From: Phycisphaerales bacterium
GTDB taxonomy: Bacteria > Planctomycetota > Phycisphaerae > Phycisphaerales > UBA1924
DNA: 46,512 nucleotides
Assembly (NCBI GenBank): GCA_020831775.1
Contig: JAFIFZ010000039.1
Location: 1-46,512, forward strand
Reading direction: 5' to 3'
In this document: in pieces, positions 23,636-45,847 of the stretch
How positions within the stretch are numbered: position 1 is the stretch's first letter
Layout of the letters: each line of letters starts with the position of its first letter
Made by a program: the position numbers and the translations under genes
Notes under the pieces: generated by a model
The model's database searches: none
Told to the model about the DNA's origin: nothing
The model's input: the letters and a program-made list of their open reading frames with translations, nothing else

Positions 23636-23674
23636 GCCGGGGCAGCCTTCACAGGCTGACCCCGGCTTTTTTTT
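23636..23674 (+). terminator. rho-independent terminator after marR
   Basis: The GCCGGGG-C-AGCCT / AGGCT-G-ACCCCGGC stem with a TCAC loop is followed by eight T residues. A second small hairpin, CGGGGAT-TCTT-GATCCCCG-like, precedes it at about 23600-23618. Confidence 0.9.
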
Positions 23675-23824
23675 CGGGCGTCGCTCTCCGCAGAATCGCG
23701 CAATCCGGTCGGCGGGCTACCCCGATCCGGGTATGCTCTAGAAAGAGGATGCAGGCCCGATCGGGTCGCTCGGCATTCGTTTGTCGGGCGTCGTGACGGC
23801 GTCGGCTTCGAGAGGAGAGTACCG

Positions 23825-24898: not shown

Positions 24899-25048
24899 GT
24901 TTTTCAATGCGGCGCTGGCCCGGCGGGGCCCGCGTCTGCCTTTGCCGGCGGCTCGATGCGGCGGGTTCCCGCCCGGTGCCGGCTTCGGAGGCGGGCCTTC
25001 AGCGTGGGGGCTCGTGAGAGTTTGAGTCGAACAGAGAAGGGAGCAGCG
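24734..25048 (+). repeat. duplicated dockerin-plus-spacer segment, copy 1
   Basis: The 165 bp encoding the dockerin of paralog 1 plus the following 150-bp spacer recur at 25985-26298. The dockerin parts differ at only three positions by eye, while the propeller parts of paralogs 1 and 2 are far more divergent. This indicates unequal crossing-over or gene conversion with a boundary at the dockerin. Confidence 0.8.
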
Positions 25049-26149: not shown

Positions 26150-26298
26150 GTTTTTCCATGCGGCGCGGGTCCGGCGGGGCCCGCGTCTGCTTTTGCCGAC
26201 GGCTCGGTGCGGCGGGTTCCCGCCCTGCGTCGGCATCGGAGGCGGGCCTTCAGCGTGGGGCTCGTGAGAGTTTGAGTCCAACAGAGAAGGGAGCAGCG
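25985..26298 (+). repeat. duplicated dockerin-plus-spacer segment, copy 2
   Basis: Matches 24734-25048. The 149-bp spacer keeps the TGAGTTTTTC start, the GGCGGGTTCCCGCC segment and the GAGAGTTTGAGTC-AACAGAGAAGGGAGCAGCG ribosome-binding leader with scattered substitutions. A third dockerin copy follows at 27235-27399, but the spacer after it is unrelated. Confidence 0.8.
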
Positions 26299-27399: not shown

Positions 27400-27495
27400 A
27401 CAGGCTCTGTTCGACACTCCGCCGCGGTCGGCCCGGAAGGGCCGGCCCGGCCTTTCCCGTCAGAAGACTCTTTCCCTCTATAGCGAGGAGGCGGC

Positions 27496-28587
27496 ATGCG
27501 ACGGATCTCAACAGGCGCGCTGGCGTTGGCGCTGGCGACCGGCGCCGCGGCGCAGCAGCAGAACTTTTTCATGGTGACCAACTCGACGAGCCCCGAGGCG
27601 GTGCTGCTGATGAACGCCGACAACGGGGATCTGCTCGATGCGTCGTGGATCAACGACCAGGGCGCGTCCGGCTGGGCGCTGGTGTTTCCCAAGAGCGCGA
27701 TCCAGGTCGGAGACGAGGTCTGGGTGTCTGACCAGAACCAGGACTCGGTGCACCGCTTCGCGGTCGATCAGAGCGACCCGATTCTGTCGCGTCCGGTGTA
27801 TGTCGGATCGATCACCGGCGACGGGGTGAACGAGTTCGACAACATCCGGGGGCTGAGCTACGACGGGGAGCGGGTGTACCTGACGATGTGGGGCCCGTCC
27901 ACGAACTTTTTCTATAACTCTGTGATCGTGATCGACGCCGCCAGCGCGACGGTCGTTGACTCGTGGCCGACCACGGGCAGCCCGTTCGATGTGCAGCAGT
28001 TCGACGGCGACCTGCTGGTGAGCGGTTCGAGCCCGAACACGGTCGTCCGCTTCAGCAAGACGGGGCAGAACCTCGGGACGGTGGTGCCCACGGGCGTGCT
28101 GAGCACGGCGCAGCAGATCCTGAACATTGACGACAACGAGTTCCTGGTGATGAGCTCGCTCGGGCTGGCGCAGAACCGCGGCATCTACCGCTACAACGCG
28201 GCGGGCGAGCAGATCGAGTTCATCCCCACCTCGGCCCAGATGGACAACGCCACGGCGCGCGGGGTCGCGCAGATTCCCGGCGGCGGGTACCTCGTGTCGA
28301 GCAACAACGGGGTCTACGCCGCCACCAGCACGGGGTCGGGGTCGTACCTGTTTACGCAGCTCGTCTCGGGCGTTGGGTTCGACGGGCACTTCATCGGGCG
28401 GCTGACGATCGGCGCCCCCGACTGCCCGCCGGACCTCAATGGGGACGGCGTGGTCGACGCCGACGACTTCTTCCTGTTCCTGCAGCTCTTTGCCGCCGGG
28501 GACATGCGGGCGGACTTCAACAACGACGGCGTGATCGATGCCGATGATTTCTTCGCGTTTCTGAGCGCGTTCGCCCAGGGCTGCTGA
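27496..28587 (+). CDS. secreted propeller-like protein with GC-type dockerin, paralog 4
   Basis: A 363-residue protein from ATG 27496, with GAGGAGGCGGC directly upstream. The signal peptide is about 1-19 (TGAAAQ). The body follows the paralog plan ([48 protein letters not shown]) but is the most diverged of the four together with paralog 1. The dockerin DNA at 28423-28587 also carries more substitutions ([14 protein letters not shown]; end FAQGC). It is therefore an older copy. The 96-bp leader before it contains a GGCCC-GGAA-GGGCC hairpin that may partly stop transcription from paralog 3. Function is inferred only from architecture. Confidence 0.8.
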
Positions 28588-31711: not shown

Positions 31712-34438
31712 TCAGCAGCCCGCGGCGAAGAGGGCGAGGAACTTGAAGAAGTCATCGGCGTCGATGACGCCATCGTTGTTGAAGTCTGCGCGGAGGTCGC
31801 CTGCTGCGAAGAGGGAGAGAAACTCGAAGAAGTCGTCGGCGTCGACGACGCCGTCGCCGTTGATGTCGGGCAGGCAGGCGGGCGGGCAGGCTCGCCATCT
31901 TGCGGCGTGCTGTTCGCCGGTGGCTGGGAGGTAGAAGCGGCCGGCCAGCAGGAGCGACGAACCTTCGTTATTGTTCCATTCCACCATTGATCTAACAGTA
32001 GTGCCGGCAAAGAGCGAGGTACTTGCTGTGGACCGTTGAATCTGCGGCAACAAAGCGGACCATTCCTGTCCGTCCCAGCGGGCGACACCGATCGCTTGTT
32101 GTCCTCCCGCGATGGTCATGTAGCCGCCCGCGTACAGTGCATTTCCCGTGCCGTCGTCGAATGTCGCGAGGCTTTGTACAATCGAGAAGATCCCGCTGCC
32201 GAGCGGGACCCAAGCCGTGCCGTTCCATTTCGCTATCCCAGGCATACTCGGGTCGTTGGTCGCACCTACGATTTGGCCCGCGGCGAAGATCGCCGGGCCC
32301 GTGCCGTCATCAAACACGGTTATCGCCCTGACCTCACTACCCAAAAGACCTTCGCCCAAGGCGTGCCATGCATTGCCGTCCCACTTCGCAATCAATCGCG
32401 TCCCGGGCACATGGGACATGTGACCGAAACTCCCACCGACATAGAGGGCTGGCCCAGATCCGTCATCAAAGACCTTCAACGCATATACCATATTTACACT
32501 TTGCATTGAAGTCACTGTCGTTCCGTCTGCTCTCAAGAGCCCCCCAACTGCGCCGATATAGAGCGCCGGCCCAGAACCGTCATCGAACATTTCGAACGCC
32601 ACAACCTGCTGATTGTTCACCCCTGGCACAAAGGCGTACTCGCTCCCGTTCCAAATCAGGATGTTGTTCGCAAACGCTCCCGGGGTTGGGAAGGATCCAC
32701 CGATGTACAGCCGGTCTCCTGTCCCATCATTGAGCACGCGGAGTACCCACACAGTACGGTTGGTTGAACCGGGGCCGCTGAGCCCTTCCCATCGCTCCCC
32801 GTTCCATCGATGCAGCATAGGGATATCGGGGTCGTCGGCGTCGAACGCCGCGTAAGGCACCGGGCCGTTGCCGTCATCAAAGACGGTCATCGCGGTGATG
32901 CGGTAAGGAAGGTCTCCGCCTACCTGCTGCCACTCACCGTTGTGCAGCGCCGCGAGATTCCGGATTGTGCTTTCGCCGAGTACCTGGCCGATTCCTCCGA
33001 CAATCAACCGGGTGTGCTCACCGTCGTTGTACTCGACCATAGCTCTGGTTTGAAGCGATTGGGTGTGCAGGCGGGTCCACGATTGGCCGTCCCAGGCCGC
33101 GATGCCGTTCATATCAGGGTCTGATTGAGAAGTAAACCGTCCGCCGGCCGCAAGTGCGGCTCTGCCGCCGACTGTTGTCGTTGCGAGGGCAGTGATACTT
33201 GAGCCGGAACTTGTAGCAAGCAAGTCTGCGCCGATCGGTTCCCACGCGGCGCCGTTCCACGCCGCGATGTAGTTGCTGTCGGTACCTCCTGCGGTTGTGA
33301 ATCTGCCACCGGCGAACAACTTCGGACCATCGCCAAGATCTATTGTTTTGAGCGCGTTGACCACGGGTGCGGTTGATGAGCCCGGAACATCGAGGCCGAC
33401 GCCAACTGGAGAGAAAGCGGTCCCGTCCCAAGCGGCAATATTGCTCACCTGCACTCCGTTGAGTTCGCTGAATCTTCCGGCTACATACAACCGAGGTCCG
33501 GCGCCGCTGTCGTAGATGGCGAGTGCACTGATCTGTCCTGAGTGTCCAGAAGCGATGAGGATCTGCCACTCGCTTCCTTCCCATCGATACAGCTGACACT
33601 GTGACGATATCGCTCCTCCTGCATACAGCTTTGCGCCGTCACCATCATCGAAGTAGATAAGCGTGTTCACTGTGGCGATGGTTTGTGGATATGAGGTCCA
33701 CTGCTGTCCATCCCATCTTCCAATGCTATAGGACTCGGCGCCGATCCGAAAGCTGCCCACGACATACAGCGCGGGGCCGGAGCCGCCGTCGAGAACAAAG
33801 AGGCGGCGTACGCTGCTCGATTGATTGTACCAATCGGGGTGTATCGGCTTCCAGTGGGACCCGTCCCAGACAGCGAGCCTGCCCAGTTTTGCGAAGCCGA
33901 TCTCTGTGAACTCGCCCGCGGCGTAGAGCTTTGGCCCGGTGCCGTCGTCGAACACGGCGAGCGAATCGACACGACCATTCACCCCGGAGACGGTCCCGAA
34001 GGTCCGCTCCCATCCCGGCTCGCACCCGCTCCGCATCACGACCGGGATCTCTCCCGCGTCGACAACACCGCCCGCTGCCTCAGCGATTGTCGAGCCGGTC
34101 CATGTCTCGGCGCCTTCGGTATGGACGGCGGAGACGCGCAGGCGATCTGCCGCCGGGTCCATCCGCACTCGCATGCGCACGAGCCCATCGGCGTCGCTCA
34201 CGCCTTTCCCACCCACGGCCGTGATGACCACCGCGCCCTCGACCGGCCGCCCGGACCCGTCGACCACGCGGGCGGTGACGAGGAACTCTTCCAGCACGGG
34301 CGCAATCCACTCGTCTGCGCCATCGTCTGCGGGCACGCCCGAGTGGCCCGGGGCCGCGCCGAGGGAAGCGCCCGGCGACGCCAGCAGTGCCGCGATCAGT
34401 CCGATGAATGTGGCTTTCAGCTTTGCTTGTCCGGGCAT
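31712..34438 (-). CDS. large secreted 14-repeat beta-propeller protein with GC-type dockerin
   Basis: A 908-residue protein from ATG 34436-34438, with a purine-rich AAAGGGAC before it. A signal peptide covers ~1-28. Residues ~45-135 look like a carboxypeptidase-regulatory/Ig-like fold (LVTARVVDGSGRPVEGAVVI). Then about 14 copies of a ~45-residue unit follow, each with a FDDGTGPxLYAGGxF core and an IAxWDGxxWxPLG edge; two seven-bladed propellers would account for 14. The end is CLPDINGDG...[12 protein letters not shown]...FAAGC, a dockerin with flanking Cys residues. Codon use in the repeat part is less GC-biased than elsewhere, which hints at later acquisition or relaxed selection. Likely a surface-displayed binding protein; the ligand is unknown. 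Confidence 0.82.
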   Translation of the reverse strand: MPGQAKLKATFIGLIAALLASPGASLGAAPGHSGVPADDGADEWIAPVLEEFLVTARVVDGSGRPVEGAVVITAVGGKGVSDADGLVRMRVRMDPAADRLRVSAVHTEGAETWTGSTIAEAAGGVVDAGEIPVVMRSGCEPGWERTFGTVSGVNGRVDSLAVFDDGTGPKLYAAGEFTEIGFAKLGRLAVWDGSHWKPIHPDWYNQSSSVRRLFVLDGGSGPALYVVGSFRIGAESYSIGRWDGQQWTSYPQTIATVNTLIYFDDGDGAKLYAGGAISSQCQLYRWEGSEWQILIASGHSGQISALAIYDSGAGPRLYVAGRFSELNGVQVSNIAAWDGTAFSPVGVGLDVPGSSTAPVVNALKTIDLGDGPKLFAGGRFTTAGGTDSNYIAAWNGAAWEPIGADLLATSSGSSITALATTTVGGRAALAAGGRFTSQSDPDMNGIAAWDGQSWTRLHTQSLQTRAMVEYNDGEHTRLIVGGIGQVLGESTIRNLAALHNGEWQQVGGDLPYRITAMTVFDDGNGPVPYAAFDADDPDIPMLHRWNGERWEGLSGPGSTNRTVWVLRVLNDGTGDRLYIGGSFPTPGAFANNILIWNGSEYAFVPGVNNQQVVAFEMFDDGSGPALYIGAVGGLLRADGTTVTSMQSVNMVYALKVFDDGSGPALYVGGSFGHMSHVPGTRLIAKWDGNAWHALGEGLLGSEVRAITVFDDGTGPAIFAAGQIVGATNDPSMPGIAKWNGTAWVPLGSGIFSIVQSLATFDDGTGNALYAGGYMTIAGGQQAIGVARWDGQEWSALLPQIQRSTASTSLFAGTTVRSMVEWNNNEGSSLLLAGRFYLPATGEQHAARWRACPPACLPDINGDGVVDADDFFEFLSLFAAGDLRADFNNDGVIDADDFFKFLALFAAGC

Positions 34439-34608
34439 GTCCCTTTGCTCCTGATCAATGCGGCAAACCCCGTCGCCCACGAGAGCGACAGAGCCCGCCT
34501 TGCGGCCTGATGGGTTGGGTTTGAATCGGTGGTCCACACACTTATCCCCAAGACTGTCCCGAAGCGGGTCAGGAATAAGTTAGCGTGCGGGTTCGCGGGG
34601 TGCAAGGA

Positions 34609-34642
34609 CAAAAAAACCTCCCCGGCCGAGGACCGGGGAGGT
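34609..34642 (-). terminator. terminator of the FG-GAP-like dockerin gene
   Basis: Read on the minus strand, ACCTCCCCGG-TCCTCGG-CCGGGGAGGT is followed directly by seven or more T residues. Confidence 0.9.
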
Positions 34643-34713
34643 CGGTATCAGACTCCGATAAGCGGACCGGGTGGATCCCGGGCCTGCTCAGGGTCGGCCG
34701 TGCGGGTCTGGCT

Positions 34714-36096
34714 TTAGCAGCCCGCGGCGAAGAGGGCGAGGTATTCGAAGAAATCGTCGGCGTCGATCACGCCATCGCCGTTGATGTCGGCCTGGAGGTC
34801 GCCGGCGGCGAAGAGGGCGAGGAACGCGAAGAAGTCGTCGGCGTCGACGACGCCGTCGCCGTTGATGTCTGCGATGCAGATGTCGACGCAGCCGTTCTCG
34901 AACACGGGTGTGTTGTCGGCGCCTGAACTGATTGCGTGTGTGGCTTCGAGGCGTCCGTTGCCGTTGAGGTCGCCGAGGTCGACCTTGCGGGGCAGGCCGG
35001 TGGAGATGGCGAGGCCTTCGCGGAAGGTGCGGTCGCCGTTGGAGAGCAGGACGCCGAGGGCGCCGTCGCCGCCGGTGGTGAGCATGCCGATGGCGATGTC
35101 ATCGGTGCCGTCGCCATCGATGTCGCCGACGGCGAGTTCGAGGGCGAAGTTGGTTCCGGGGATGGTGACCTGCTCTGCGGGGGCGAAGCCGCCCGCGCCG
35201 TCGCCGTAGAGGATCGAGACGCCGCCGCCGCCGCCGCCGAGGGTGACGACGACATCGAGGTTGCCATCGTTATCGAAGTCACCGACGCCGAGGTCCTCGG
35301 GCCCCGCGGTGAGGGGGAAGTCGCCGGCGCTGGTGAAGGTGCCGTTGCCGTTGTTCAGGTAGAGGGTGACCGAGGGGGGCTGGGTCTGTGAGTTTGCGAC
35401 GGCGATGTCGAGGCGGCCGTTGTTGTTGAAGTCGCCTGCGCGTGCGGCGGTCGGGCGGAGGGAGAAGAGAAACTCCGCGTTGCCCAGGTTGAAGTTGCCT
35501 TGGCCGTCGTTGTAGGCGACGAGGACGGTGGCGCCGCCGGTGTCGGTGGCGATGATGTCGAGGTGGCCGTTGCCGTTGAGATCGGCGATGTCGAGGTCGT
35601 TGATGCCCTCGCCGGGCCCTGTGTCGTAGAAGACGACGGGGTCGGCGAAGGTGCCGTCGCCGTTGTTGCGGATGAACTCGACGCCCTGCGTGCCGGCGAC
35701 GATGTCGGTGTGGCCGTTGCCTGTGAGGTCACCGCCGGCGATCGAGCGGGGCCCGCCTCGCGTGAAGGAGGGGTTGGCCGAGCCTTCGACGCCGACAAGG
35801 AACGGCGTGCCGAAGCCGCCCTGGCCGTCGCCGGGGAAGACGGCGATGCCGGCGCGGTCGGGCGCGACATCGAAGATGAGCTTGCTCTGGCCGACGAGCA
35901 GGTCGAGGTGGCCGTTGCCGGTGACATCGAGGAAGCGTGCGCCGGTGCTGGTGCCGTGCCCGCTGGCGTTGTTGAGGACGGTGGGGGGCGAGACAAAGGC
36001 GTTCGCGGCGTCGCACTGGGCCGATGCTGCGCCGGCGAGTGCTGCGATGGATCCCGCGGCGAGCGTCGCCGCACACTTGTTGCTTCTGTTCATCAT
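34714..36096 (-). CDS. secreted FG-GAP/VCBS-repeat protein with GC-type dockerin
   Basis: A 460-residue protein starting at ATG 36094-36096 or the next codon, with GGAGG five to eight bases upstream. The signal peptide is about 1-24 (AASAQ). The body has seven FG-GAP/VCBS-type repeats with calcium-loop cores, such as DVTGNGHLDLLVG, DLTGNGHTDIVAG, DLNGNGHLDII, DFNNNGRLDIAVA, DFDNDGNLDVVV, DIDGDGTDDIAIG and DLNGNGRLE, consistent with one seven-bladed integrin-like propeller. The C-terminal dockerin runs from CIADINGDG to FAAGC and both loops are intact. It is on the same strand as the PEP-CTERM gene upstream but has its own terminator. A surface adhesion or glycan-binding role is plausible but unproven. 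Confidence 0.85.
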   Translation of the reverse strand: MMNRSNKCAATLAAGSIAALAGAASAQCDAANAFVSPPTVLNNASGHGTSTGARFLDVTGNGHLDLLVGQSKLIFDVAPDRAGIAVFPGDGQGGFGTPFLVGVEGSANPSFTRGGPRSIAGGDLTGNGHTDIVAGTQGVEFIRNNGDGTFADPVVFYDTGPGEGINDLDIADLNGNGHLDIIATDTGGATVLVAYNDGQGNFNLGNAEFLFSLRPTAARAGDFNNNGRLDIAVANSQTQPPSVTLYLNNGNGTFTSAGDFPLTAGPEDLGVGDFDNDGNLDVVVTLGGGGGGVSILYGDGAGGFAPAEQVTIPGTNFALELAVGDIDGDGTDDIAIGMLTTGGDGALGVLLSNGDRTFREGLAISTGLPRKVDLGDLNGNGRLEATHAISSGADNTPVFENGCVDICIADINGDGVVDADDFFAFLALFAAGDLQADINGDGVIDADDFFEYLALFAAGC

Positions 36097-36276
36097 TCGA
36101 ACCTCCGTGTTTGAGCGCCGTCTCGTAGTGTCCGGCGCTCGCCCCGCCGCAGCGGGGAATTGTTTGCCGATCAACGACCCGGAAAGTTCGCCCGCGGAAA
36201 GGGCGCCGTGTCGTCCCCGCACGAAGGGAAACCCCGGCGCGCCGGTCAGGGCGAGCCGGGATGAGGGAAAGTCGGA

Positions 36277-37005
36277 TCAGGCGCGACGCCTGCGGGTCGC
36301 GACCAGGCCGCCCATGCCGAGGAGCGCCAGAGCGCCCGGGGCGGGGACGACGATCATGTCGAGGACGAGGCGGTCGAGAGCGAGGACCCCGACATCGCCG
36401 CCGGAGGCGACGATGCTGAACTGCCCGCGGAGACCGGTGCCGGTGGCGAGCTGGTCGATCTGCGGGCCGAGGCTGACGGTGATGCGCTGGCTGGCGTCGG
36501 CGGCGAGCACGATGTCGGCGCCGGAGAACCAGGTGATGTTCGCCGAGACGAAGGTGATGTCGTTGCTGACGGTGCGGATGCCGTTGTTGGTGCCGAAAGT
36601 GGTGGCGCCCAGGTCGAAGGTGAGGGTGTCGAGGGTGTCGACGGAGGGGCTGAACGGATCGAAGTCCAGGCCCGGGGCGAGGAAGGTGTCGGCGGCGGAG
36701 ACCTCGACGCGGATGGTGAAGGTGCCGTCGCCGTTGGCGAACTGCGACTCGGTGAGCTGGTAGCTGACGGGATCGCCGACATCGCCGCCGACGAAGTTGG
36801 TCGGCTGGCCGCTCATCGTGGCGCTGTTGCCGTCGAACTGGGTGATGGTGTTCGCCCACGCGGGGGCGAAGGTGAACCCGCCTCCGCCGGAGCCGAAGAA
36901 GGTGGCGTTGTACGACTCACCGACATTGACCACCTGGGCCCCGGCGGCGCCGGCCAGAGCGCCCAAAGCGCACGCCGACACAACGAACTTGCTGCTGCGA
37001 ACCAT
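36277..37005 (-). CDS. PEP-CTERM-sorted secreted protein
   Basis: A 242-residue protein from ATG 37003-37005, with AGGAGA seven bases upstream. The signal peptide is about 1-23 (AGAAGAQ). The mature part is beta-rich and polar, with no domain I can name (VGESYNATFFGSGGGG, then LTESQFANGDGTFTIRV, and a jelly-roll-like remainder). The last 25 residues form a PEP-CTERM-like sorting signal: V-P-A-P, a Gly/Ala/Leu hydrophobic stretch (ALALLGMGGLVA) and an RRRR end. Such tails are cut by an exosortase/archaeosortase-type enzyme that leaves the protein at the surface or in the matrix. No exosortase is in this window. Confidence 0.8.
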   Translation of the reverse strand: MVRSSKFVVSACALGALAGAAGAQVVNVGESYNATFFGSGGGGFTFAPAWANTITQFDGNSATMSGQPTNFVGGDVGDPVSYQLTESQFANGDGTFTIRVEVSAADTFLAPGLDFDPFSPSVDTLDTLTFDLGATTFGTNNGIRTVSNDITFVSANITWFSGADIVLAADASQRITVSLGPQIDQLATGTGLRGQFSIVASGGDVGVLALDRLVLDMIVVPAPGALALLGMGGLVATRRRRA

Positions 37006-37260
37006 GTCTATCTCTCCTACACCGAATGTCTCTCTCGCGCCGGTCACACGCACGGCGCATCTCTCTCAGAGCCGGCACTGAAGACCGGACAACTTGGAGT
37101 GTAGGCACAACGGACACTCGCATGCAAGATCATTTGCATGCGTTCGTACGCCGTTCATAAGCGCGGGCGAGATTATGAAACAGCACCGGCGTAGGGCCCA
37201 CGCCCCCCGCGGGCGGCCCACCCCCCCGCCGGTGCGGCAATTGCGTACAAACAAGTTCCG

Positions 37261-38805
37261 TCAGCAGCCCGCGGCAAACAACGCGAGGTACTCGAAGAAG
37301 TCGTCGGCGTCGATCACGCCATCGCCGTTGATGTCCGCCCGGGTGTCGCCGTCGGCGAATAGCTGCAGGAACAGGAAAAAGTCGTCGGCGTCGACAACGC
37401 CGTCGCCGTTCAGATCCGCGACACAAACATCGTCGCCGCCGAACCGGAGCAGCGTGCGCCCGAGATCGTTCGGGCCCTGTCTGATCTGCGCCAGGAAATA
37501 CAGAGCGCCGTCGTCGCCGATGAGGGCGGTGCCCGTGCCGATCTCGCGGACGAATGAAGTAATGAAAGCGTTGTCGTCGGGCTGGCCGTTGCCCGAGATA
37601 TCCACCGGGTCGTCGCTCTGGAGGATGATTTCCTCGCCGTTCTTCACGACGACTTCGATCCGCTCCTGCGTGGTCTGGTTGAGGGCCCAGCCGCCGATGT
37701 AGTAGTCCTGCCCGTCGGGCGAGCCGATCTGGAAGTTGACGCCGGCGAGGGTGGTGGTGTCGCTCAGGCGGTCCCATTGCCAGTCGGAGCCGGGAACGAT
37801 GGGTGTGCCCCGGAGCATGGCGACATCGCCGTTGCGGACGACGAAATCGAGGCCGGCCTCGCCGCCGCCGATGACGCCGCGGACGAACCAGTTGCCCGCC
37901 GGGTCGGCCCAGGTGCCGGTGATGCTCGTCACATCGCCCAGGCCTGTCTGGCCGGGGATGGGCCGTCGCGACTCGACCACGGCGACATTGTCCACCGCGA
38001 CGATCTCGATCCGGTCGCCGATCACCGATGCGTTGTCGCGCCCGAGCCAGACGAAGCTGTCGCCGGCCTGCGAGAGCGGACGCATGCGGTCCTGGGTGAA
38101 GTCGCCCCAGTCGGTGAGGCCGGGGTTGCCGTCGGGCAAGCGCCCGGGCGTGAAGCTGTTGTCGTTGGCGCGGACGATCAGCGTGTCGGCGAGCCACTTC
38201 GATTGGTCGTTCTGCCCGACGCCCGGCTCGTTGATGCTGAACGAGTAGAGCACCCGGCCGTCGTTCAAGATGCCCTCGGTCCTGTTGGCGCCGGCGAAGG
38301 AGGCGCCGGGGATGCCGGGGACCATCTCTGAGTTGCTGGCGATCAGGTCGCGCTGGCCGTCTGTGTCGCGCATGATGTACAGCGTCGGCGAGCCCGAGCC
38401 CGTCGAGTTGCACGCGAACGAGATCTGCCCCGAGTCGTTCACCTGGGCCGCCCCGTTGAACAGGTTGATCGAGCGGCTGGACCCCGGGTCGGCCGGCAAC
38501 GCCTCGCCCCGCTGCACGCGCAGGGTGATGTCGGTGCTGGCGGTGGTCATCTCGAAGACGCCGCGGTTGGTCGAGGCGTCGCCGGTGAGCGTGGCGATGA
38601 AGACAAACCGGTTGCCGCTGGGCGAAGAACGCAGGTCGACAAAGGTCGTGCCCAACTGTCGCCCCGAGACATTGCTCACCTCGTTAAAGGGCGCAAACGA
38701 GCCGGCCAGCGGCGTAGCGATCGGCGCCGCCCCCGCAGCCCCAACCATCGGCCCCGCCATCCCTGCAACCAACACCAACCCGAACGCGCTGCGACGATTC
38801 ACCAT
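37261..38805 (-). CDS. secreted protein of unknown fold with GC-type dockerin
   Basis: A 514-residue protein from ATG 38803-38805, with AAGGAGAT at correct spacing. The signal peptide is about 1-26 (GAAGAA). The 400-residue body contains repeating strand-turn units (RFVFIATLTGDASTNRGVFEM, GQISFACNSTGSGSPTLYIM, DRIEIVAVDNVAV) resembling a beta-propeller, in particular proteins of this group that report values for periods of the sequence (ILNDGRVLYSFSIN, DSFVWLGRDN), but I cannot assign a family. The dockerin (residues ~457-514) is CVADLNGDG...[12 protein letters not shown]...FAAGC. A short GC-rich inverted repeat (GCACCGGCG at 37183, CGCCGGTGC at 37227) after the stop may end transcription. 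Confidence 0.78.
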   Translation of the reverse strand: MVNRRSAFGLVLVAGMAGPMVGAAGAAPIATPLAGSFAPFNEVSNVSGRQLGTTFVDLRSSPSGNRFVFIATLTGDASTNRGVFEMTTASTDITLRVQRGEALPADPGSSRSINLFNGAAQVNDSGQISFACNSTGSGSPTLYIMRDTDGQRDLIASNSEMVPGIPGASFAGANRTEGILNDGRVLYSFSINEPGVGQNDQSKWLADTLIVRANDNSFTPGRLPDGNPGLTDWGDFTQDRMRPLSQAGDSFVWLGRDNASVIGDRIEIVAVDNVAVVESRRPIPGQTGLGDVTSITGTWADPAGNWFVRGVIGGGEAGLDFVVRNGDVAMLRGTPIVPGSDWQWDRLSDTTTLAGVNFQIGSPDGQDYYIGGWALNQTTQERIEVVVKNGEEIILQSDDPVDISGNGQPDDNAFITSFVREIGTGTALIGDDGALYFLAQIRQGPNDLGRTLLRFGGDDVCVADLNGDGVVDADDFFLFLQLFADGDTRADINGDGVIDADDFFEYLALFAAGC

Positions 38806-39091
38806 GACAGATCTCCTTCTCCTCGAAAGTCGCTCCGCCCCATCGAACACGCAAGGGGGAAGCAAGGGGGTTCATCCCGCCCCGTTCGGCACATCGAAGC
38901 GGGGCGCGGCCGCCCGCACACCCGATCTAAGGGGTGGGGGCCTGGTGAAGCATACCGCGATCCGCCCGATCCCGAACACCAAATCCCTCGCCCGTCCGCC
39001 CCGAGCAGGATCCCGTTCGGTACACTGGGGCCCGCGGGACGCACAGGACGAGTCCCGGAAAAGAACCACCCGCGTCGCAAGGAGGTGACCG

Positions 39092-40108
39092 ATGGTGAGA
39101 AGTGCTTTGTTCGCCGTGACGATGTCGCTGCCGCTCGCATGGACCGCGGTCGCCAACGCCCAGCCCCTGCCCGACTACGGCTTCGACTGGGTCACCGTCG
39201 GCAATCCCGGCAACGCCAACGCCACTCGAGACCAATTCCCGTTCTTGTACCGTGACGGCGGCGGCGTGGATACCGCATACAGAATCACGACGCTGCCCGC
39301 TTCGATGCGCCAATGGTCGGAGTTCGCGACGGCGTTCGACGCCGTGGCGACGCAGGCCGAACGGCTGACCCTGCAGTTTTCGAGCATCTATGTGCAACGA
39401 CAAGGACAGTCGGGGCCGCTGGTTTTCTACCCCCAGTACAACGACTATCCAGCGACCTCCAACTTCATGCTCGCCATGAGGTACGCCAACTGGCTGCACA
39501 ACGACCGCGCAACGGGCAGGGCGGCCTTCGACGACGGCGCGTACGACATGTCCGAGTTCTACGAGGTTTCGCCGAATGTCTGGCGCGGCAACGCAGTACG
39601 CCGCCCCGACGCAAAGATCTGGATCCCTTCGCACGACGAACTGGTCAAGTCGTTCTATTACGATCCTGATCGCTACGGTCCCGACGAGGGCGGGTACTGG
39701 GCCTACCCGCACGGCAGCGATGAGCAGCCGATCTACGGCGCTCCGTGGGAACCGGACGCCCAGAGCAACGCGGGGATCGAACTCCCTCTCGGCGATTGGG
39801 TCTTCAACATGCCGCTGGGGCTCTACCCCGACACCGCATCGCCCTACGGCGTGCTCGAAGCCAGCGGCGGCATCGCCGAATGGACCGAAACGCCTTTGTG
39901 GGGAATCGACATCGGAGATCGCTACTTTCATCAGTCAGCGGCCGGCGGTCACCATTCGCCGTTCGACGCACTGAACCGCGCCTTCCAGGCAGCCCCGATC
40001 CACTTGGGCTTATCCGGGTTTCGATTCGCGGCGGTCGTGCCTTCGCCGGGCGCGGTACCGGTGCTCGCGTTCGCCGCCTTTGTCACCTTTGCAAGGAGAA
40101 AGCGATGA
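39092..40108 (+). CDS. SUMF1-fold PEP-CTERM protein, paralog 1 (type A)
   Basis: A 338-residue exported protein; ATG 39092 follows AAGGAGGTGACCG. The signal peptide ends ANA at residue 23. The mature part is a formylglycine-generating-enzyme (SUMF1/FGE-sulfatase) fold: YRITTLPASMRQWSEF early, MRYANWLHNDRATGRAAFDDGAYDMS, IPSHDELVKSFYYDP, YGVLEASGGIAEWTE and the fold-ending GFRFA. No Cys is present at the positions where true FGE holds its catalytic/copper-binding pair, so it is not expected to make formylglycine. A PEP-CTERM-like tail follows (VVPSPGAVPVLAFAAFVTF, then RRKR). TACACT at 39021 is a candidate -10 box. Its stop overlaps the next gene by four bases. Confidence 0.8.
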   Translation: MVRSALFAVTMSLPLAWTAVANAQPLPDYGFDWVTVGNPGNANATRDQFPFLYRDGGGVDTAYRITTLPASMRQWSEFATAFDAVATQAERLTLQFSSIYVQRQGQSGPLVFYPQYNDYPATSNFMLAMRYANWLHNDRATGRAAFDDGAYDMSEFYEVSPNVWRGNAVRRPDAKIWIPSHDELVKSFYYDPDRYGPDEGGYWAYPHGSDEQPIYGAPWEPDAQSNAGIELPLGDWVFNMPLGLYPDTASPYGVLEASGGIAEWTETPLWGIDIGDRYFHQSAAGGHHSPFDALNRAFQAAPIHLGLSGFRFAAVVPSPGAVPVLAFAAFVTFARRKR

Positions 40109-41118
40109 GATACCGGGTATCGATCATCGTCGCGTGCCTGTCCGCAACCGCCAACGCCCAGCCCGCCCCGGACTACGGCTTCCAGTGGTCGACCATCGGT
40201 GATATCAACAACCCCGCGTTCGACGGCGGCGGCTACGGCTTCTTTGCAGGCCGTGGCGTGGTCAACTACGAGTACCGCATCAGCAAACTCCAAATCACCT
40301 CCGGGCAGTGGCTGGAGTTCGTCAACACTTTCTCTACGCGTGATGGCGGCGAATTCTTCACGAGACCTTACCAATGGGGCGCGTACCCAGACCCGCACTA
40401 CACCGGACCGGGCAGACGCTGGACCCCAAAGAACCTGCCCAACTGGGACATGCTGCCCGTCGCGGGCGTCTCGTGGCGCGAAGCGGCCATGTATACCAAC
40501 TGGCTCCACAACGACAAGTCACCCGAACAGTGGGCCATCGAGAACGGCGCCTACGACACAAGCACATTCTCGACTGACCCCAACACGCTCGTCTTCACCG
40601 ACCAGCTCACACGCAACCCCGACGCGAAGTTCTGGATCCCCAGCCTTGACGAGTGGCTCAAAGCGGCGCATTACGACCCGCACCGTCACGGCCAAGGCGA
40701 GGGCGGGTGGTGGCTGTACCCCAACAGCACCGATGAACCGCTGACGCCCGGCCCCCCCGGAGTTGGTCAGACATCCGCGGATTGGATCGATCCGAACATA
40801 CAAGCGGGCGAGTGGCTGATTCCGCTCGGGGCATACCCCGACGAGACATCGCCGTGGGGCTTGCTCGACATCAGCGGCGGCGCAAGCGAGTGGTCCGAGG
40901 AACATTTGCGACACCGTGATCGATTCTTTAACGGATCCAATGCCGGTATGACATTCCCGATGCTCGATCATGCGGGCTATCCCGCAGCAGATTTTCCGCA
41001 CACTCGAGGGCCTTACGGACTTCGAATCGCCTCCGTTGTTCCTGCTCCGACGACGGGCGTGTTGCTCGTTGTCACATTGACACCTGTTGTTCTCAGAAGA
41101 AGACGGATCGCACCATGA
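40105..41118 (+). CDS. SUMF1-fold PEP-CTERM protein, paralog 2 (type B)
   Basis: A 337-residue protein starting at ATG 40105 inside the end of paralog 1 (ATGA overlap), with AAGGAG just upstream, so the two are translationally coupled. The signal peptide ends ANA at residue 18. The type B hallmark is GQWLEFVNTFS after YRISKLQI, then WDMLPVAGVSWREAAMYTNWLHND, FWIPSLDEWLKAAHYDP, PWGLLDISGGASEWSEEH and GLRIA at the end of the fold. The catalytic Cys pair of FGE is missing. The tail is a PEP-CTERM-like VVPAP, hydrophobic stretch and RRRR. It is shorter in the region before WDMLP than true FGE and lacks its RGGSW-type signature. Confidence 0.8.
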   Translation: MRYRVSIIVACLSATANAQPAPDYGFQWSTIGDINNPAFDGGGYGFFAGRGVVNYEYRISKLQITSGQWLEFVNTFSTRDGGEFFTRPYQWGAYPDPHYTGPGRRWTPKNLPNWDMLPVAGVSWREAAMYTNWLHNDKSPEQWAIENGAYDTSTFSTDPNTLVFTDQLTRNPDAKFWIPSLDEWLKAAHYDPHRHGQGEGGWWLYPNSTDEPLTPGPPGVGQTSADWIDPNIQAGEWLIPLGAYPDETSPWGLLDISGGASEWSEEHLRHRDRFFNGSNAGMTFPMLDHAGYPAADFPHTRGPYGLRIASVVPAPTTGVLLVVTLTPVVLRRRRIAP

Positions 41119-41183
41119 GTGCTATGCCGACCTGCTGCCGTCAGTCGCCGGCTTTGTATCGACTCAACACAAGGAAGTGACGC
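41119..41183 (+). repeat. 65-bp duplicated spacer, copy 1
   Basis: The sequence between paralogs 2 and 3, with CAGTCGCCGGCTTTGTATCG near 41143 and the leader CAACACAAGGAAGTGACGC before the start codon, recurs at 42207-42271. It also matches into both coding starts (ATGCTGAAAAGAAC), marking a tandem duplication boundary. Confidence 0.8.
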
Positions 41184-42206
41184 ATGCTGAAAAGAACTTT
41201 GTTCGCCGCGGCGCTATCGCTGCCGCTCGCGGCCGCCAACGCCCAACCCGCCCCGGACTATGACTTCCCATGGGCGACGATCAGTGATCCGGGCAACGCC
41301 GCATTCCAAGGCTCGGCGCTCCCTTTCGCAAGCGGGCGCGGGAGTGTCGGCTACACATACCGCATCAGCACACTCCAAGTGACTACCGGCCAATGGATGG
41401 AGTTTGTCAACACCTTCTCGATGCAACCCGGAGGCGAGGCATTCTCGAACCCAACGCAGTGGGGCGCCTATTCCGATCCCCGTTACAACGGTCCCGGGGT
41501 TCGTTGGATATACGGAATTGGGCCGGACGTCGACTTGCTGCCGGTCGCCGGCATCTCGTGGCGAGAAGGGGCGATGTACTGCAACTGGCTGCACAACAAC
41601 AAAGCCCCGGAGCAGTGGGCCTTGGAAACCGGGGCCTACGACACCAGCACATTCTCCACCAACCAGCACAGCTACAACTTCACCGACCAACTCACTCGGA
41701 GCCCTGATGCGCGTTTCTGGATCCCGAGTCTTGATGAATGGCTCAAAGCAGCCCACTACGATCCGAATCGTTTCGGCCCGGGCGACAGCGGCTGGTGGCA
41801 GTATCCGAACAGCTCTGATGCGCCGTTGCAGCCCGGGCCGCCCGGCGAAGGACAGACCACCGCGGGCTGGGTTGATCCGGATCCCAACCGCAATCTCGGT
41901 GAATGGTACATCCCCTTGGGCGCCTACCCCGATGAAGCTTCGCCTTGGGGCTTGCTGGACATCAGCGGAGGCGCAACAGAGTGGACCGAGGAACACATCG
42001 ACCTCCGCTGGCGTGTTGTAAATGGAAGCAGCGCGGGCTTCGCCCACGCTCCGCTCGACTGGATCGAACACATCGGAGCACAACTGCCAGATAGCCGAAA
42101 CTACAACGGACTTCGGATCGCATCGGTCGTTCCTGCTCCGTCGACGGGCATGCTGCTCGTCACCACATTGGCGGTTGTTCTCAGAAGAAGACGGATCGCA
42201 TCATGA
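41184..42206 (+). CDS. SUMF1-fold PEP-CTERM protein, paralog 3 (type B)
   Basis: A 340-residue protein from ATG 41184, with AAGGAAGTGACGC upstream. The signal peptide ends ANA at residue 20. It is closest to paralog 2: GQWMEFVNTFSMQPGG, LLPVAGISWREGAMYCNWLHNN, RFWIPSLDEWLKAAHYDP, PWGLLDISGGATEWTEEH, GLRIA. The lone Cys (AMYCNW) is not at a family catalytic position. The fold is thus structurally kept but probably non-enzymatic, perhaps a glycan or peptide binder. The PEP-CTERM-like end reads VVPAPSTGMLL and stops in RRRRIAS. Less GC-biased third positions than in paralog 4 suggest the copies have diverged for some time. Confidence 0.8.
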   Translation: MLKRTLFAAALSLPLAAANAQPAPDYDFPWATISDPGNAAFQGSALPFASGRGSVGYTYRISTLQVTTGQWMEFVNTFSMQPGGEAFSNPTQWGAYSDPRYNGPGVRWIYGIGPDVDLLPVAGISWREGAMYCNWLHNNKAPEQWALETGAYDTSTFSTNQHSYNFTDQLTRSPDARFWIPSLDEWLKAAHYDPNRFGPGDSGWWQYPNSSDAPLQPGPPGEGQTTAGWVDPDPNRNLGEWYIPLGAYPDEASPWGLLDISGGATEWTEEHIDLRWRVVNGSSAGFAHAPLDWIEHIGAQLPDSRNYNGLRIASVVPAPSTGMLLVTTLAVVLRRRRIAS

Positions 42207-42271
42207 GTGCAACGCCGGCCTGCTCCCATCAGTCGCCGGCTTTGTATCGCCTCAACACAAGGAAGTGACGC
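42207..42271 (+). repeat. 65-bp duplicated spacer, copy 2
   Basis: Near-identical to 41119-41183, with a few substitutions in the first 25 bases; the last 40 bases before the start codon are nearly unchanged. Confidence 0.8.
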
Positions 42272-43336
42272 ATGCTGAAAAGAACCCTGTTCGCCGCCAC
42301 GGTATCGCTGCCGCTCGCGGCCGCCAACGCCCAACCCGCCCCGGACTACGGCTTCCAATGGGCGACCATCGGCGAACCCGGCAACACCGCCTACGACGGC
42401 GGGTTCTGGGGCATGACCACCGGCCGCGGCAGCGTTGATTACACATTCCGCATCAGCACGCTCCAAGTCACCACAGGACAGTGGATGGGGTTTCTCAACA
42501 CCTTCTCCCAGCGCGACGGCTGGGAGTACTTCGGCCGGCCGTCGCGATGGGGCGCCAGCCACGATTACTTCTACTCCGGTCCCGGTGCGAGGTACCTCCC
42601 GATCGACACGCCGAACTGGGACATGCTGCCCGTCGCGGGGATCTCGTGGCACGAAGCCGCGATGTACACCAACTGGCTGCACAACGGCAAGTCGTCCGAC
42701 CCCACCTCGCTGCAGACCGGCGCGTACGACACCGGCACATGGGGCGTCGACCCGAACACCGGCCACCGCACCGACGGCGGCAGGCTGCCCGGCGCGAAGT
42801 TCTGGATCCCCAACCTCGACGAGTGGCAGAAGGCGGTGTACTACGACCCCGACCGCTACGCACCCGGCGAGAGCGGCTGGTGGCTGTTTCCCAACAGCTC
42901 CGACGAGCCGCTGACGCCCGGGCGGCCGGGTGAGGGCGAGACGATGGCGGGGATCCAGGAGCAGCACTCCGCCGAGTGGAATGTGCCGCTGGGCGCTTAC
43001 CCGCAGGTGACCACCCCGTGGGGCCTGCTCGACGCCAGCGGCGGCGCGCACGAGTGGATCGAGGAATGGACGCACGCCGCCGCCCCGCAGCGCCGAGGTT
43101 TGAACGGCTCGTACGCGGGCCAGCACTCGCCGGAACTGCACGATCGCGCCGACGCCTTCACGGGATCCCAACGCCCCGATGCTTCCGCGTTCTGGGGCGG
43201 GCTCCGCATCGCCTCGGTCGTCCCAGCGCCGGGAACCTCGGCCTTGGCGGCGTTCATGTTCGTCGCGCTCGCCGCCCGCAGAAACAGGCCGCAGAAGCGC
43301 GGGGATGCTGCATTGCAAGGAAGCCACGGATGCTGA
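42272..43336 (+). CDS. SUMF1-fold PEP-CTERM protein, paralog 4 (type B)
   Basis: A 354-residue protein from ATG 42272. The first ~20 residues are nearly identical to paralog 3 (MLKRTLFAATVSLPLAAANA). Type B motifs remain: GQWMGFLNTFSQRDG, MLPVAGISWHEAAMYTNWLHNG, FWIPNLDEWQKAVYYDP, PWGLLDASGGAHEWIEE, GLRIA. No Cys replaces the missing FGE pair. The PEP-CTERM-like tail (VVPAPGTSALAAFMFVALAARR) is followed by a 17-residue polar extension ending GSHGC, encoded by the part that overlaps the start of paralog 5. Sorting would remove that extension. Stop and next start overlap by seven bases, so translation is coupled. Confidence 0.8.
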   Translation: MLKRTLFAATVSLPLAAANAQPAPDYGFQWATIGEPGNTAYDGGFWGMTTGRGSVDYTFRISTLQVTTGQWMGFLNTFSQRDGWEYFGRPSRWGASHDYFYSGPGARYLPIDTPNWDMLPVAGISWHEAAMYTNWLHNGKSSDPTSLQTGAYDTGTWGVDPNTGHRTDGGRLPGAKFWIPNLDEWQKAVYYDPDRYAPGESGWWLFPNSSDEPLTPGRPGEGETMAGIQEQHSAEWNVPLGAYPQVTTPWGLLDASGGAHEWIEEWTHAAAPQRRGLNGSYAGQHSPELHDRADAFTGSQRPDASAFWGGLRIASVVPAPGTSALAAFMFVALAARRNRPQKRGDAALQGSHGC

Positions 43337-44409
43337 GAAGAACTCTGCTCGCCGCGGCGGTCTCGCTGCCGCTCGCGGCCAGTGCCCAGCCCTTGCCCGA
43401 CTACGGCTTCGACTGGATCACGGTCGGCGATCCCGGCAATGCCGCATACGACACAACATTCATGCTCGGCCGCCCGACAGGATCCGTCGATTACAGCTTC
43501 AGGATCGCGGCTTCCCCGCTCTCCAACGCGCAATGGATCGACTTCGCAAACGCGCTCGACACCGTCGCCACGCCGCAGGAACAGTTCTGGATGGAGTTGC
43601 AGGCGTCGCCCGCGGTCCGGCGCAACAGCGGCGGCGTGTTCGAGATCACGCCGGGGCGTGAACAGTTCGGCGCGCGCACGAACTACATGCTCGCCGCGAT
43701 GTACGCCAACTGGATGCACAACGACCGGAGCCCCGATCGAGCGGCGTTCGACAGCGGCGCCTACGACATGTCGCTCTTTGTCAACAACGGCGGCACATGG
43801 TCGAGCGAGGGCGCTCGCTCACCCGACGCCAGGTTCTGGATCCCGTCCATCGACGAGCACATCAAGGCGTCGTACTACGACCCGGACAAGCACGGTCCCG
43901 GCGAGGGCGGCTACTGGCGGTTTCCCCACCAGAGCGACGAGCCGCCCGCCTACGCCCTGCCCTGGGAGCCCGGTGCGCAGAGCAACGCGGGGATCGAACC
44001 GCCCTTCACCGGCGAATGGCGGACGGAGATGCCGCTGGGCTTGTACCCCGAGACGACCTCCGCCTACGGCCTTCAGGATGTTTCAGGCGGCGTGCTCGAA
44101 TGGACAGACTCACCTCTCATGGATGTGATCGCCAGCTCGCGCATGGCGCACCAGTCCGCGGCTGGTATTGGTGAGTTTGCGCCGCTGTTTGAAGATATCG
44201 ATCTGCTCACATATGGAAGCGGTTCGTTCATCCAAGGCATGGGGCTTAGACTCGCAACAGTCGTGCCTTCGCCCGGCACACTCGCCCCGCTCCTCTTGCT
44301 CTGCCTGCACCATCGCCGACGGCGGCCCTGCACAACCCACGACCACGGCCCGCACACGCCCTGCCTGCACGGCGTGATGCAACGCAATGACAGCGATTTC
44401 CTCGCCTGA
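43330..44409 (+). CDS. SUMF1-fold PEP-CTERM protein, paralog 5 (type A)
   Basis: A 359-residue protein from ATG 43330. The signal peptide ends ASA at residue 19. It is type A like paralog 1: QPLPDYGFDWITVGDPGNA, NYMLAAMYANWMHNDRSPDRAAFDSGAYDMS, FWIPSIDEHIKASYYDP, YGLQDVSGGVLEWTD, MGLRLA. So the five-gene array runs A-B-B-B-A. The catalytic Cys pair of FGE is again missing. After VVPSPGTLAPLLLLCL and a short Arg cluster, a His/Pro/Thr-rich tail of about 35 residues follows, ending DSDFLA; the normal stop after the Arg cluster seems to have been lost. An 18-bp palindrome follows the stop codon. Confidence 0.78.
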   Translation: MLRRTLLAAAVSLPLAASAQPLPDYGFDWITVGDPGNAAYDTTFMLGRPTGSVDYSFRIAASPLSNAQWIDFANALDTVATPQEQFWMELQASPAVRRNSGGVFEITPGREQFGARTNYMLAAMYANWMHNDRSPDRAAFDSGAYDMSLFVNNGGTWSSEGARSPDARFWIPSIDEHIKASYYDPDKHGPGEGGYWRFPHQSDEPPAYALPWEPGAQSNAGIEPPFTGEWRTEMPLGLYPETTSAYGLQDVSGGVLEWTDSPLMDVIASSRMAHQSAAGIGEFAPLFEDIDLLTYGSGSFIQGMGLRLATVVPSPGTLAPLLLLCLHHRRRRPCTTHDHGPHTPCLHGVMQRNDSDFLA

Positions 44410-44415
44410 ATCGTG

Positions 44416-44433
44416 TCCGGGTTCGAACCCGGA
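44416..44433. repeat. 18-bp perfect palindrome
   Basis: TCCGGGTTCGAACCCGGA lies seven bases after the last SUMF1-like gene. It could be a weak terminator hairpin or a dyad protein-binding site upstream of the next dockerin gene. Confidence 0.7.
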
Positions 44434-44509
44434 GCGCGATTCCCGCGAACCGACTTTCTCACACAGCATCTGTCATTGCCGGAATTGGCAAGGCCGAGAA
44501 AGAGGAGAT

Positions 44510-45667
44510 ATGAAGATGACCAAGTCCGCAGTTATCGCCGGGATCGCCGCCGTCGCAGGCTTCGCCGTCGCCGCAAACGCCCAGTTTATCACGGGCATCA
44601 CCAAGCCCGTCTTCAGCGTCAACCAGCCCGAGGCCTTCTTCACCGACCTCGACGCGCTGACCAACACCTTCCTCTTCGACATCCAGAACGACACGGGCAT
44701 CCCCGCCACAGCGCCGGGCTTCACCGGCCTCGCGGGCGACGACGCCAACAGGCGCTTCTTCGCCACCGTTCGCAACGGGCCGCAGGACGACATCTGGGAG
44801 TTCGACTACGACGACCTGCTCAACCCCACGCTCCTCTTCACCGCACGCCACCCCGACGGCAGCGGACAGGCCATCAACGGCCTCGCCTACGACACCACGC
44901 GCAACAAGCTCTACGGCTCCGGCCGACTCAACAACGAGCTCTACGAGATCGACATCAACACCGGTACTGTTATCAGCGTGCTCGATTACTCGACGCTCGT
45001 CGGCGGCGCGAGCAACTGGACCGTCACCTCCGTCGAGTACTACGCCGGCACCGACCTGCTCTACATCGTCAACCGCGACCCGGGCGCCCAGCCCGGACGC
45101 GCCATCTGGTCGCTCGATCCCGAAAACCTCAGCGCCGGCCCCACGCTCGTCGCCCAGCTCCCCCCGGACATCACCAACCCCGACGGCCTCGGCGCGGGCG
45201 ACGGCAAGCTCTTCCTCGTCACCGGCCACAACACCATCAACAACGGACGACACATCGTCTACGACCTGGCCACCGGCGAATTCTCACAACCCATCGAGAC
45301 GCCCTACCCCGCCCCCGCCGGCTCGCCCCTGCAGCCGATCCCGTCGGCCGCGGGCGCGTTCGTCCCGAACCTGCTGAGCGCCCCGGGCTGCCCCGCGGAC
45401 CTCAACGGCGACGGCGTCGTCGACGCCGATGACTTCTTCCTGTTCTTGCAGTTCTTCGCCGACGGCGACGCCAGAGCCGACATCAACAACGACGGCGTGA
45501 TCGACGCGGACGACTTCTTCGAGTACCTCCGCCTCTTCGCCGCCGGCTGCTGCGCCCGCGCCGGCCGATGGCATCCGCCTACCGGGGCGCCGCCCGCAAA
45601 ACCCCCCACAGCGCGCCGCCGCACACCGCGGGGGCGTTTTCTTTCCCATCCAGCCAAACGACTCTGA
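44510..45667 (+). CDS. secreted protein with GC-type dockerin and lost stop codon
   Basis: A 385-residue protein from ATG 44510, with GAGGAGAT at close spacing. The signal peptide is about 1-24 (AANAQ). The ~280-residue body looks like a beta-propeller (DALTNTFLFDIQND, GLAGDDANRRFFATVRNG, INGLAYDTTRNKLYGSGRLNNELYEID, AIWSLDPENLSAG). The dockerin starts CPADLNGDG and both loops are intact, but where all seven other dockerin proteins stop after Gly-Cys, this one reads TGC instead of TGA at 45551-45553 and runs on for 38 residues rich in Pro and Arg. That extension also covers its own likely terminator. The extra tail may prevent normal processing or anchoring at the Cys. Confidence 0.82.
   Translation: MKMTKSAVIAGIAAVAGFAVAANAQFITGITKPVFSVNQPEAFFTDLDALTNTFLFDIQNDTGIPATAPGFTGLAGDDANRRFFATVRNGPQDDIWEFDYDDLLNPTLLFTARHPDGSGQAINGLAYDTTRNKLYGSGRLNNELYEIDINTGTVISVLDYSTLVGGASNWTVTSVEYYAGTDLLYIVNRDPGAQPGRAIWSLDPENLSAGPTLVAQLPPDITNPDGLGAGDGKLFLVTGHNTINNGRHIVYDLATGEFSQPIETPYPAPAGSPLQPIPSAAGAFVPNLLSAPGCPADLNGDGVVDADDFFLFLQFFADGDARADINNDGVIDADDFFEYLRLFAAGCCARAGRWHPPTGAPPAKPPTARRRTPRGRFLSHPAKRL
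45598..45640 (+). terminator. weak terminator inside the extended reading frame
   Basis: AAAACCCCCC-ACAGCG paired with CGCGGGGGCG-TTTT forms an imperfect stem with a T-containing run (TTTTCTTTC) after it. It lies beyond the ancestral stop position but before the present one. Confidence 0.5.
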
Positions 45668-45847
45668 ATCCGCACGGAGTGTGTTTGGCTGTTGCTCTGG
45701 TATTGGCCTGCCCAGCGGCTCACGCCCGCAAGTTTCTTGACATTCGCGGCATTTTCGGTTCCTCTCTGACCACTCAACTGCGCTGAGTACAGCAGACACA
45801 CTGTTTCGGCTCCGTCGTCATGCGCGAGCTTGGTCTGGAGGATGGAC

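Follow-up and report, generated by a model that had tools for sequence, protein, structure and literature searches.

A tandem array of five FGE-fold proteins without the catalytic cysteine pair in Phycisphaerales, a candidate set of surface binding modules

Introduction

The fold of the formylglycine-generating enzyme (FGE or SUMF1; PF03781) serves both catalysis and extreme sequence variation. Which role is served by five proteins of this fold that are encoded head to tail in a Phycisphaerales bacterium (assembly GCA_020831775.1, contig JAFIFZ010000039.1)? Their open reading frames occupy positions 39092–44409 of the forward strand of the window, i.e. of the whole stretch of 46,512 nucleotides that was analysed. 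An original prediction had proposed that they may be surface-displayed, diversified proteins of the SUMF1 fold that bind rather than catalyze. We put slightly better than even confidence in the reading that the array arose by lineage-specific multiplication within a Phycisphaerales family of surface-displayed, non-catalytic binding modules with an FGE-type C-type-lectin fold. A binding module fits best because this cysteine-less fold is most divergent at the end where the old active site was located. Binding is also more likely than an enzymatic role since the family is widespread, often duplicated, recombining and often found beside one large secreted protein. The general occurrence of the family in Phycisphaerales, its linkage with a partner, the peak of variability in the segment that corresponds to the FGE cysteines and to the retroelement variable region, and the evidence for recombination are new beyond the original prediction.

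Fold and loss of the catalytic cysteines

Genes 1 (39092–40108, 338 amino acids, P0001) and 5 (43330–44409, 359 amino acids, P0005) belong to subtype A, and genes 2 (40105–41118, 337 amino acids, P0002), 3 (41184–42206, 340 amino acids, P0003) and 4 (42272–43336, 354 amino acids, P0004) to subtype B. All five proteins match PF03781, four of them above the curated cut-off of 23.3 bits (P0002 with 56.3 bits) and P0001 slightly under it with 21.5 bits. These matches end at profile position 192–202 of 255, so that the last fifth of the domain is not reached. AlphaFold2 models were calculated for gene 3 from the family alignment of 112 rows (pLDDT 92.7) and for gene 5 from a reduced alignment of 103 rows that omits 9 of those (pLDDT 85.4); both have a predicted FGE-type fold, while genes 1, 2 and 4 were placed by alignment only. 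Short and partial hits had been dropped from the family alignment.

Foldseek matches were re-aligned, and those less than one Z unit apart were treated as ties. For P0003 these comparisons gave TvpA (Z 21.4, root-mean-square deviation 3.2, 233 residues aligned), CarF (21.0), EgtB (20.0), PorK (19.4) and FGE (2q17, 18.3); for P0005 they gave CarF (20.1), TvpA (19.9), EgtB (19.7) and human FGE (17.4–17.6, with 17.6 for 1z70). By Foldseek E-value CarF, SUMF2 and ToxD come first for gene 3. A sequence-profile search of the PDB returned SUMF2 as best match (E 1.1e-9) and CarF with E 6e-7, and phmmer with P0003 alone against the PDB found just two chance-level matches. The best score against the GldK equivalog model TIGR03525 was 15.5 bits, versus a cut-off of 350. 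The assignment of five tandem FGE/SUMF1-fold proteins thus stands, with PF03781 in all five and with structure prediction for one member of each subtype.

Motifs of the family scaffold are NWLHN, GAYD, IPxxDEW, GGWW and GGxxEW. The last one corresponds to the GNxxEW turn, the asparagine of which we take to be a calcium ligand of FGE; GN is present in SUMF2, CarF and PorK, and most family rows have GG (G in 85 of 112, N in 6). Near-invariant columns are N134, W135, Y152 and E185 (112 of 112 rows each), K188 (111), H137 (106) and D153 (103), H137 being the sole histidine column conserved in more than 90% of the rows.

That the catalytic cysteine pair is absent, as had been claimed from the five sequences, is borne out by the family alignment: within columns 261–317 two or more cysteines occur in none of the 112 rows and one cysteine in two rows, and the array proteins have none there. 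P0001 contains no cysteine at all, P0002 one in the leader (residue 11), P0004 one as last residue (354) and P0005 three in the C-terminal tail (325, 334 and 345). The mature domain is therefore cysteine-free in four of the five array proteins, and the remaining one, P0003, has a single cysteine at 133, a column occupied by cysteine in 74 of the 112 rows. Because there is no cysteine pair in the active-site segment, FGE catalysis by the known mechanism is very unlikely for the array proteins. Loss of this pair is not rare by itself, as also SUMF2 and EgtB are without it.

Distribution and subtypes of the family

A profile search of 61 genomes, the array's own genome included, detected the family in 37 of them with 0–17 hits per genome (fragments counted) and gave no match in 24. 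Within a collection of species it is found in 108 stretches, the best 80 of which were kept; these are mostly titled Phycisphaerales, Phycisphaerae, Phycisphaeraceae or Planctomycetota. Family members also occur in records titled Leptolyngbya, Cyanobacteria bacterium and Akkermansia (L047, L056, L058 and L082), perhaps misnamed planctomycete bins. A literature search covering few subscription journals retrieved no description of the family and nothing on topic that joins FGE with PEP-CTERM or SUMF1 with Planctomycetes.

The array's own genome (G000) contains eight family genes, namely the array five, a tandem pair of B genes on C68 (C68a and C68b) and an A gene on C51. In a quick tree of the 112 rows, with SH-aLRT support only, genes 1, 5 and C51 form a clade with support 100. 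Genes 2–4, C68a, C68b and the sister-species gene L012 fall within a set of seven rows with support 99 that also includes L024; as six alone they reach a support of just 27. The proposed A-B-B-B-A arrangement is thereby upheld. With midpoint rooting the common ancestor of the own-genome members spans 106 of the 112 rows, so the split between A and B is an old one. The five-gene order did not recur among the fetched loci, which are cut stretches with at most two separate family genes. Relatives carry one to three FGE-fold domains per polypeptide (L015, L021 and L053). A single open reading frame of 1125 amino acids in L015 (54–3428) has three such domains and corresponds to three array genes in fused form. 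Another, different PF03781 protein, encoded on C77 (13329–13760) of the own genome, is by eye also devoid of a cysteine pair near its end.

Linkage with a large secreted protein

Of 134 neighbours of family genes 126 remained under a residue cap, and 115 of these were compared, 11 having been removed as family genes themselves. No Pfam family occurs in more than two of the 115, and all-against-all BLASTP placed 26 of them in one cluster, which a few members join via a dockerin tail only. Judged by eye, the cluster proteins are large, with signal-peptide-like starts, GxI-type repeats and a conserved LGGGAVGLVPF block, and several end with a dockerin-like tail. In searches with eight and with six of these partner proteins, nothing in Pfam or NCBIfam scored above cut-off, and their PDB matches were limited to the dockerin tail or to EF-hand-like regions.

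A partner model was built from 18 neighbours, which it re-finds; independent support comes from the remaining neighbours and from a check of whole genomes. Counting only family genes that have at least 800 bp downstream and are not followed by another family gene, the partner lies directly downstream on the same strand in 33 of 75 cases at a threshold of E up to 1e-15 (38 at 1e-4 and 31 at 1e-25), and directly upstream in one. Ten genomes picked for holding the family contain 35 partner places (two further pieces of counted partner genes were merged): 27 are situated just downstream of a family gene, i.e. on the same strand with the match beginning no more than 3 kb from where the family gene ends, two at a contig edge and six elsewhere. 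The partner is present in eight of these ten genomes (neither in G000 nor in G019) and in one of 19 genomes without the family (19 of the 24 such genomes were covered); Fisher's p of 9e-5 is approximate, since the genomes were chosen. On the tree its presence is labile: 34 of the 87 labelled rows have the partner, and at least 26 changes are required.

In the array's own genome the best match of the partner model has E 4e-12, and the matches listed all cover the C-terminal dockerin region alone. As the spacer of the C68 pair starts with the same bases as the partner gene of the sister species (G001, contig L012), the array form looks as if it had arisen by partner loss. That partner gene (L012, 3136–5106) contains one in-frame TAG, indicating a pseudogene, readthrough or a sequencing error. 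The next gene downstream of the array (44501–45562, forward strand, start assumed at 44501) encodes a secreted-looking protein with a GC-type dockerin and matches the partner model weakly (E 7e-10); we read this as a match by its dockerin tail. It is a dockerin protein different from the partner of the relatives. Altogether eight open reading frames of the window (within 23660–28584, 31712–38808 and 44501–45562) have weak matches to the model, as is usual for dockerin proteins, and NF041540 identified five of the eight as GC-type dockerin proteins. In the own genome the model has 103 such weak matches.

This linkage is also an argument for the main rival explanation, in which the proteins are cysteine-free FGE-fold enzymes or maturation factors that modify a secreted client, originally the large protein encoded downstream in the relatives. 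Such an arrangement (33 of 75 genes; 27 of 35 places) recalls pairs of a modifying enzyme and its client, EgtB-type enzymes are among the structural matches, and near-invariant polar residues (N134, W135, Y152, E185, K188, H137 and D153) are retained outside the old active site. However, H137 is the only histidine column above 90%, no cysteine pair is kept, variability peaks in the segment of the old active site, and eight copies without client in one genome would be odd for a modifying enzyme. We regard this explanation as unlikely, though it deserves to be taken seriously.

Variable segment

Among eleven segments of the family alignment, 269–308 (numbering of P0003) has the highest column entropy with a mean of 3.13 bits; segment 216–245 has 2.46 bits and the main motif segments have 1.25–1.57. 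This variability is one between family members. On the forward strand of the window the segment corresponds to 39887–40015 in gene 1 (residues 266–308), 40897–41016 in gene 2 (265–304), 41988–42107 in gene 3 (269–308), 43061–43198 in gene 4 (264–309) and 44107–44241 in gene 5 (260–304). It is the part of the fold that in FGE contains the cysteine region and in proteins varied by a diversity-generating retroelement (DGR) the variable region. According to PMC5006420, residues 322–369 of human FGE occupy the same place in space as the variable regions of Mtd and TvpA (285–329 in TvpA). Since the structural alignments of P0003 end at residues 316–317, which are paired with TvpA 329 and FGE 370, its variable segment lies at that end of the fold, too.

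Between the closest paralogs of the own genome, gene 2 and C68a are 92% identical in the amino acids of the core and 77% in the segment, and gene 4 and C68b 78% and 47%, respectively. Pairwise NG86 comparison by segment of seven pairs gave a segment dN that is 2.3–4.2 times the core dN. Also dS rises; for gene 2 and C68a it is 0.26 at the 5′ end and 1.15 within the segment. We read the divergence of the segment as probably the product of a mosaic history together with weaker constraint.

Positive selection on the variable segment was not supported as a cause, omega being below 1 wherever computable and dS saturated in two of the seven comparisons. Retroelement diversification was rejected because RVT_1 gave no match in the own genome (95% complete; relatives were not searched), 3 of 14 control genomes being positive. 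From the claim that the set is diversified, the concentration of divergence in the segment of the FGE active site and variable region and the recombination described below are retained, and positive selection and a retroelement are not supported.

Omega below 1 would also suit structural proteins of envelope or matrix, or assembly proteins, that form a PorK/GldK-like scaffold with no selected variability. The structural match with PorK (Z 19.4), the weak sequence matches with GldK (15.5 bits, cut-off 350) and the one to three domains per polypeptide of the relatives, which suit a repeated building block, point in the same direction. Nevertheless, an essential part of a machine would not be expected to vary in copy number from 0 to 17 and to give no match in 24 of the 61 genomes searched, and we consider this explanation improbable. 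That the proteins are DGR targets like TvpA is nearly refuted for the own genome, because in spite of TvpA being one of the leading structural matches (Z 21.4 for P0003 and 19.9 for P0005) and of the coincidence of the most variable segment with the retroelement variable region, RVT_1 is missing there and the changes, synonymous ones included, extend beyond the segment.

Junction repeats and recombination

The predicted overlaps between genes 1 and 2 (ATGA, 40105–40108) and between genes 4 and 5 (7 nucleotides, 43330–43336) were confirmed, and so were the duplicated, near-identical spacers of 65 nucleotides between genes 2 and 3 (41119–41183) and genes 3 and 4 (42207–42271). Each spacer is now seen to be the middle of a direct repeat of 227 nucleotides that leads from the tail of one gene through to the leader of the next (41086–41312 and 42174–42400, forward strand). 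Both copies are 89% identical, versus 65% DNA identity between the cores of genes 3 and 4. At synonymous sites the leaders generally resemble one another more than the cores do, even across the two subtypes: in A–B pairs the synonymous difference amounts to 0.41 in the leader versus 0.62 in the core. A consensus scan of 38800–45700 found no sigma-70-like promoter.

The clearest sign of recombination comes from the sister species, where the flanks of the gene on L012 match the own C51 locus at 91–92%. The gene itself is of B-type and matches own C68a with a mismatch-free run of 883 nucleotides, against a background of about 92%; the run begins near the leader and stops near the tail, in either case within the gene. 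This identity is most naturally read as transfer or ectopic conversion; a chimeric metagenome assembly is a less likely source, as it would need two joins within one gene. A contig of the sister species matches the window at 34711–37051 (91.6%) and ends short of the array. At the C51 locus a direct repeat of 208 nucleotides (95.7%; L090, 8501–8708 and 10022–10229) flanks the family gene; its upstream copy is located at the 3′ end of the upstream open reading frame, a possible trace of insertion or duplication.

Export and C-terminal tails

Export of the array proteins is likely, judging from their signal-peptide-like starts (by eye). Retention at the surface via exosortase is plausible: the tails of all five display by eye VPxP, a hydrophobic stretch and basic residues, beyond which genes 4 and 5 extend considerably, and the own genome has two PF09721 exosortase genes above cut-off. 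With the curated PEP-CTERM models the tail of gene 3 scores best, with 15.0 versus 16 bits for TIGR02595 and 12.4 versus 20.7 for PF07589; the other four gave no match to either at E up to 1. What had been named PEP-CTERM tails thus agrees with that type in its visible features and in the presence of exosortases but does not pass a curated model, and the surface display proposed from it keeps its plausibility on the same evidence.

Interpretation

Several observations weigh against the reading of the array as a set of surface-displayed binding modules. The failure of every array tail to pass a curated PEP-CTERM model is one of them, and FGE-fold proteins without the cysteine pair can be enzymes, as the EgtB-type synthases are. 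The loop 81–120 is almost as variable (2.95 bits) as the segment at the old active site. Segment omega is 0.15–0.88 in the five pairs in which dS is not saturated, and these values are rough because segment dS exceeds 1 in all seven pairs; the variability may be relaxed constraint. In the closest pairs both dN and dS increase toward the 3′ end, which mosaic history alone could explain. The effect in the leaders is uneven (C68b and C51 differ by 0.60 in the leader versus 0.67 in the core), and the leader of gene 2 differs from the others. Finally, 42 of the 75 family genes are without partner at the threshold used, and so is the array's own genome, meaning that the array proteins could not at present serve to bind it, unless the partner has been replaced by another protein.

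If the five proteins nevertheless are binding modules, each would be exported by its signal peptide and probably retained in the envelope by the tail of VPxP, hydrophobic and basic residues through sorting of the exosortase type. The conserved scaffold would carry the C-terminal segment and thus a divergent surface in place of the FGE active site, most likely for binding a ligand or a partner protein. From the linkage, the likeliest partner in many relatives would be the large, repeat-rich secreted protein whose gene follows directly. The five genes may have developed from both of the old subtypes through tandem duplication and through ectopic recombination via shared leader–spacer–tail junctions, with no retroelement involved. 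A broader version of this reading can be offered only tentatively: a surface recognition repertoire of Phycisphaerales on the FGE/C-type-lectin fold, varied without retroelement, in which the binding-site halves diverge, shared leaders, tails and spacers allow swaps between loci and species, and the modules were originally encoded together with a dedicated large secreted partner.

Comparison with known systems

With FGE the array family shares the fold over nearly the whole protein and the core motifs W..A..Y..W, IP..DEW and GL.D..G...EW; it differs by the missing catalytic cysteine pair, the divergent active-site segment and the mostly GG form of the GNxxEW turn. SUMF2 (pFGE), the human paralogue of FGE and best sequence-profile match in the PDB (E 1.1e-9), is an animal protein of the endoplasmic reticulum that likewise lacks the cysteine pair, but has neither secretion tail nor array. 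The PorK/GldK lipoproteins of type IX secretion resemble the family in fold (Z 19.4) and are distinct in sequence (15.5 versus 350 bits). CarF (5aoh) is tied in fold with TvpA (Z 21.0 and 20.1 for the two models) and has a profile match of E 6e-7, but is a single gene in a different context. TvpA, the DGR variable protein of Treponema denticola, is among the closest folds and has its variable segment at the same end; in contrast to it, the own genome of the array (95% complete) gave no reverse transcriptase match, and the variation need not be programmed. The family may be a case of retroelement-free diversification on the FGE scaffold, with recombination between loci and perhaps species. Together with its linked partner, the cysteine-less family offers a well-defined two-gene module for experimental tests in an order that has been little characterised.

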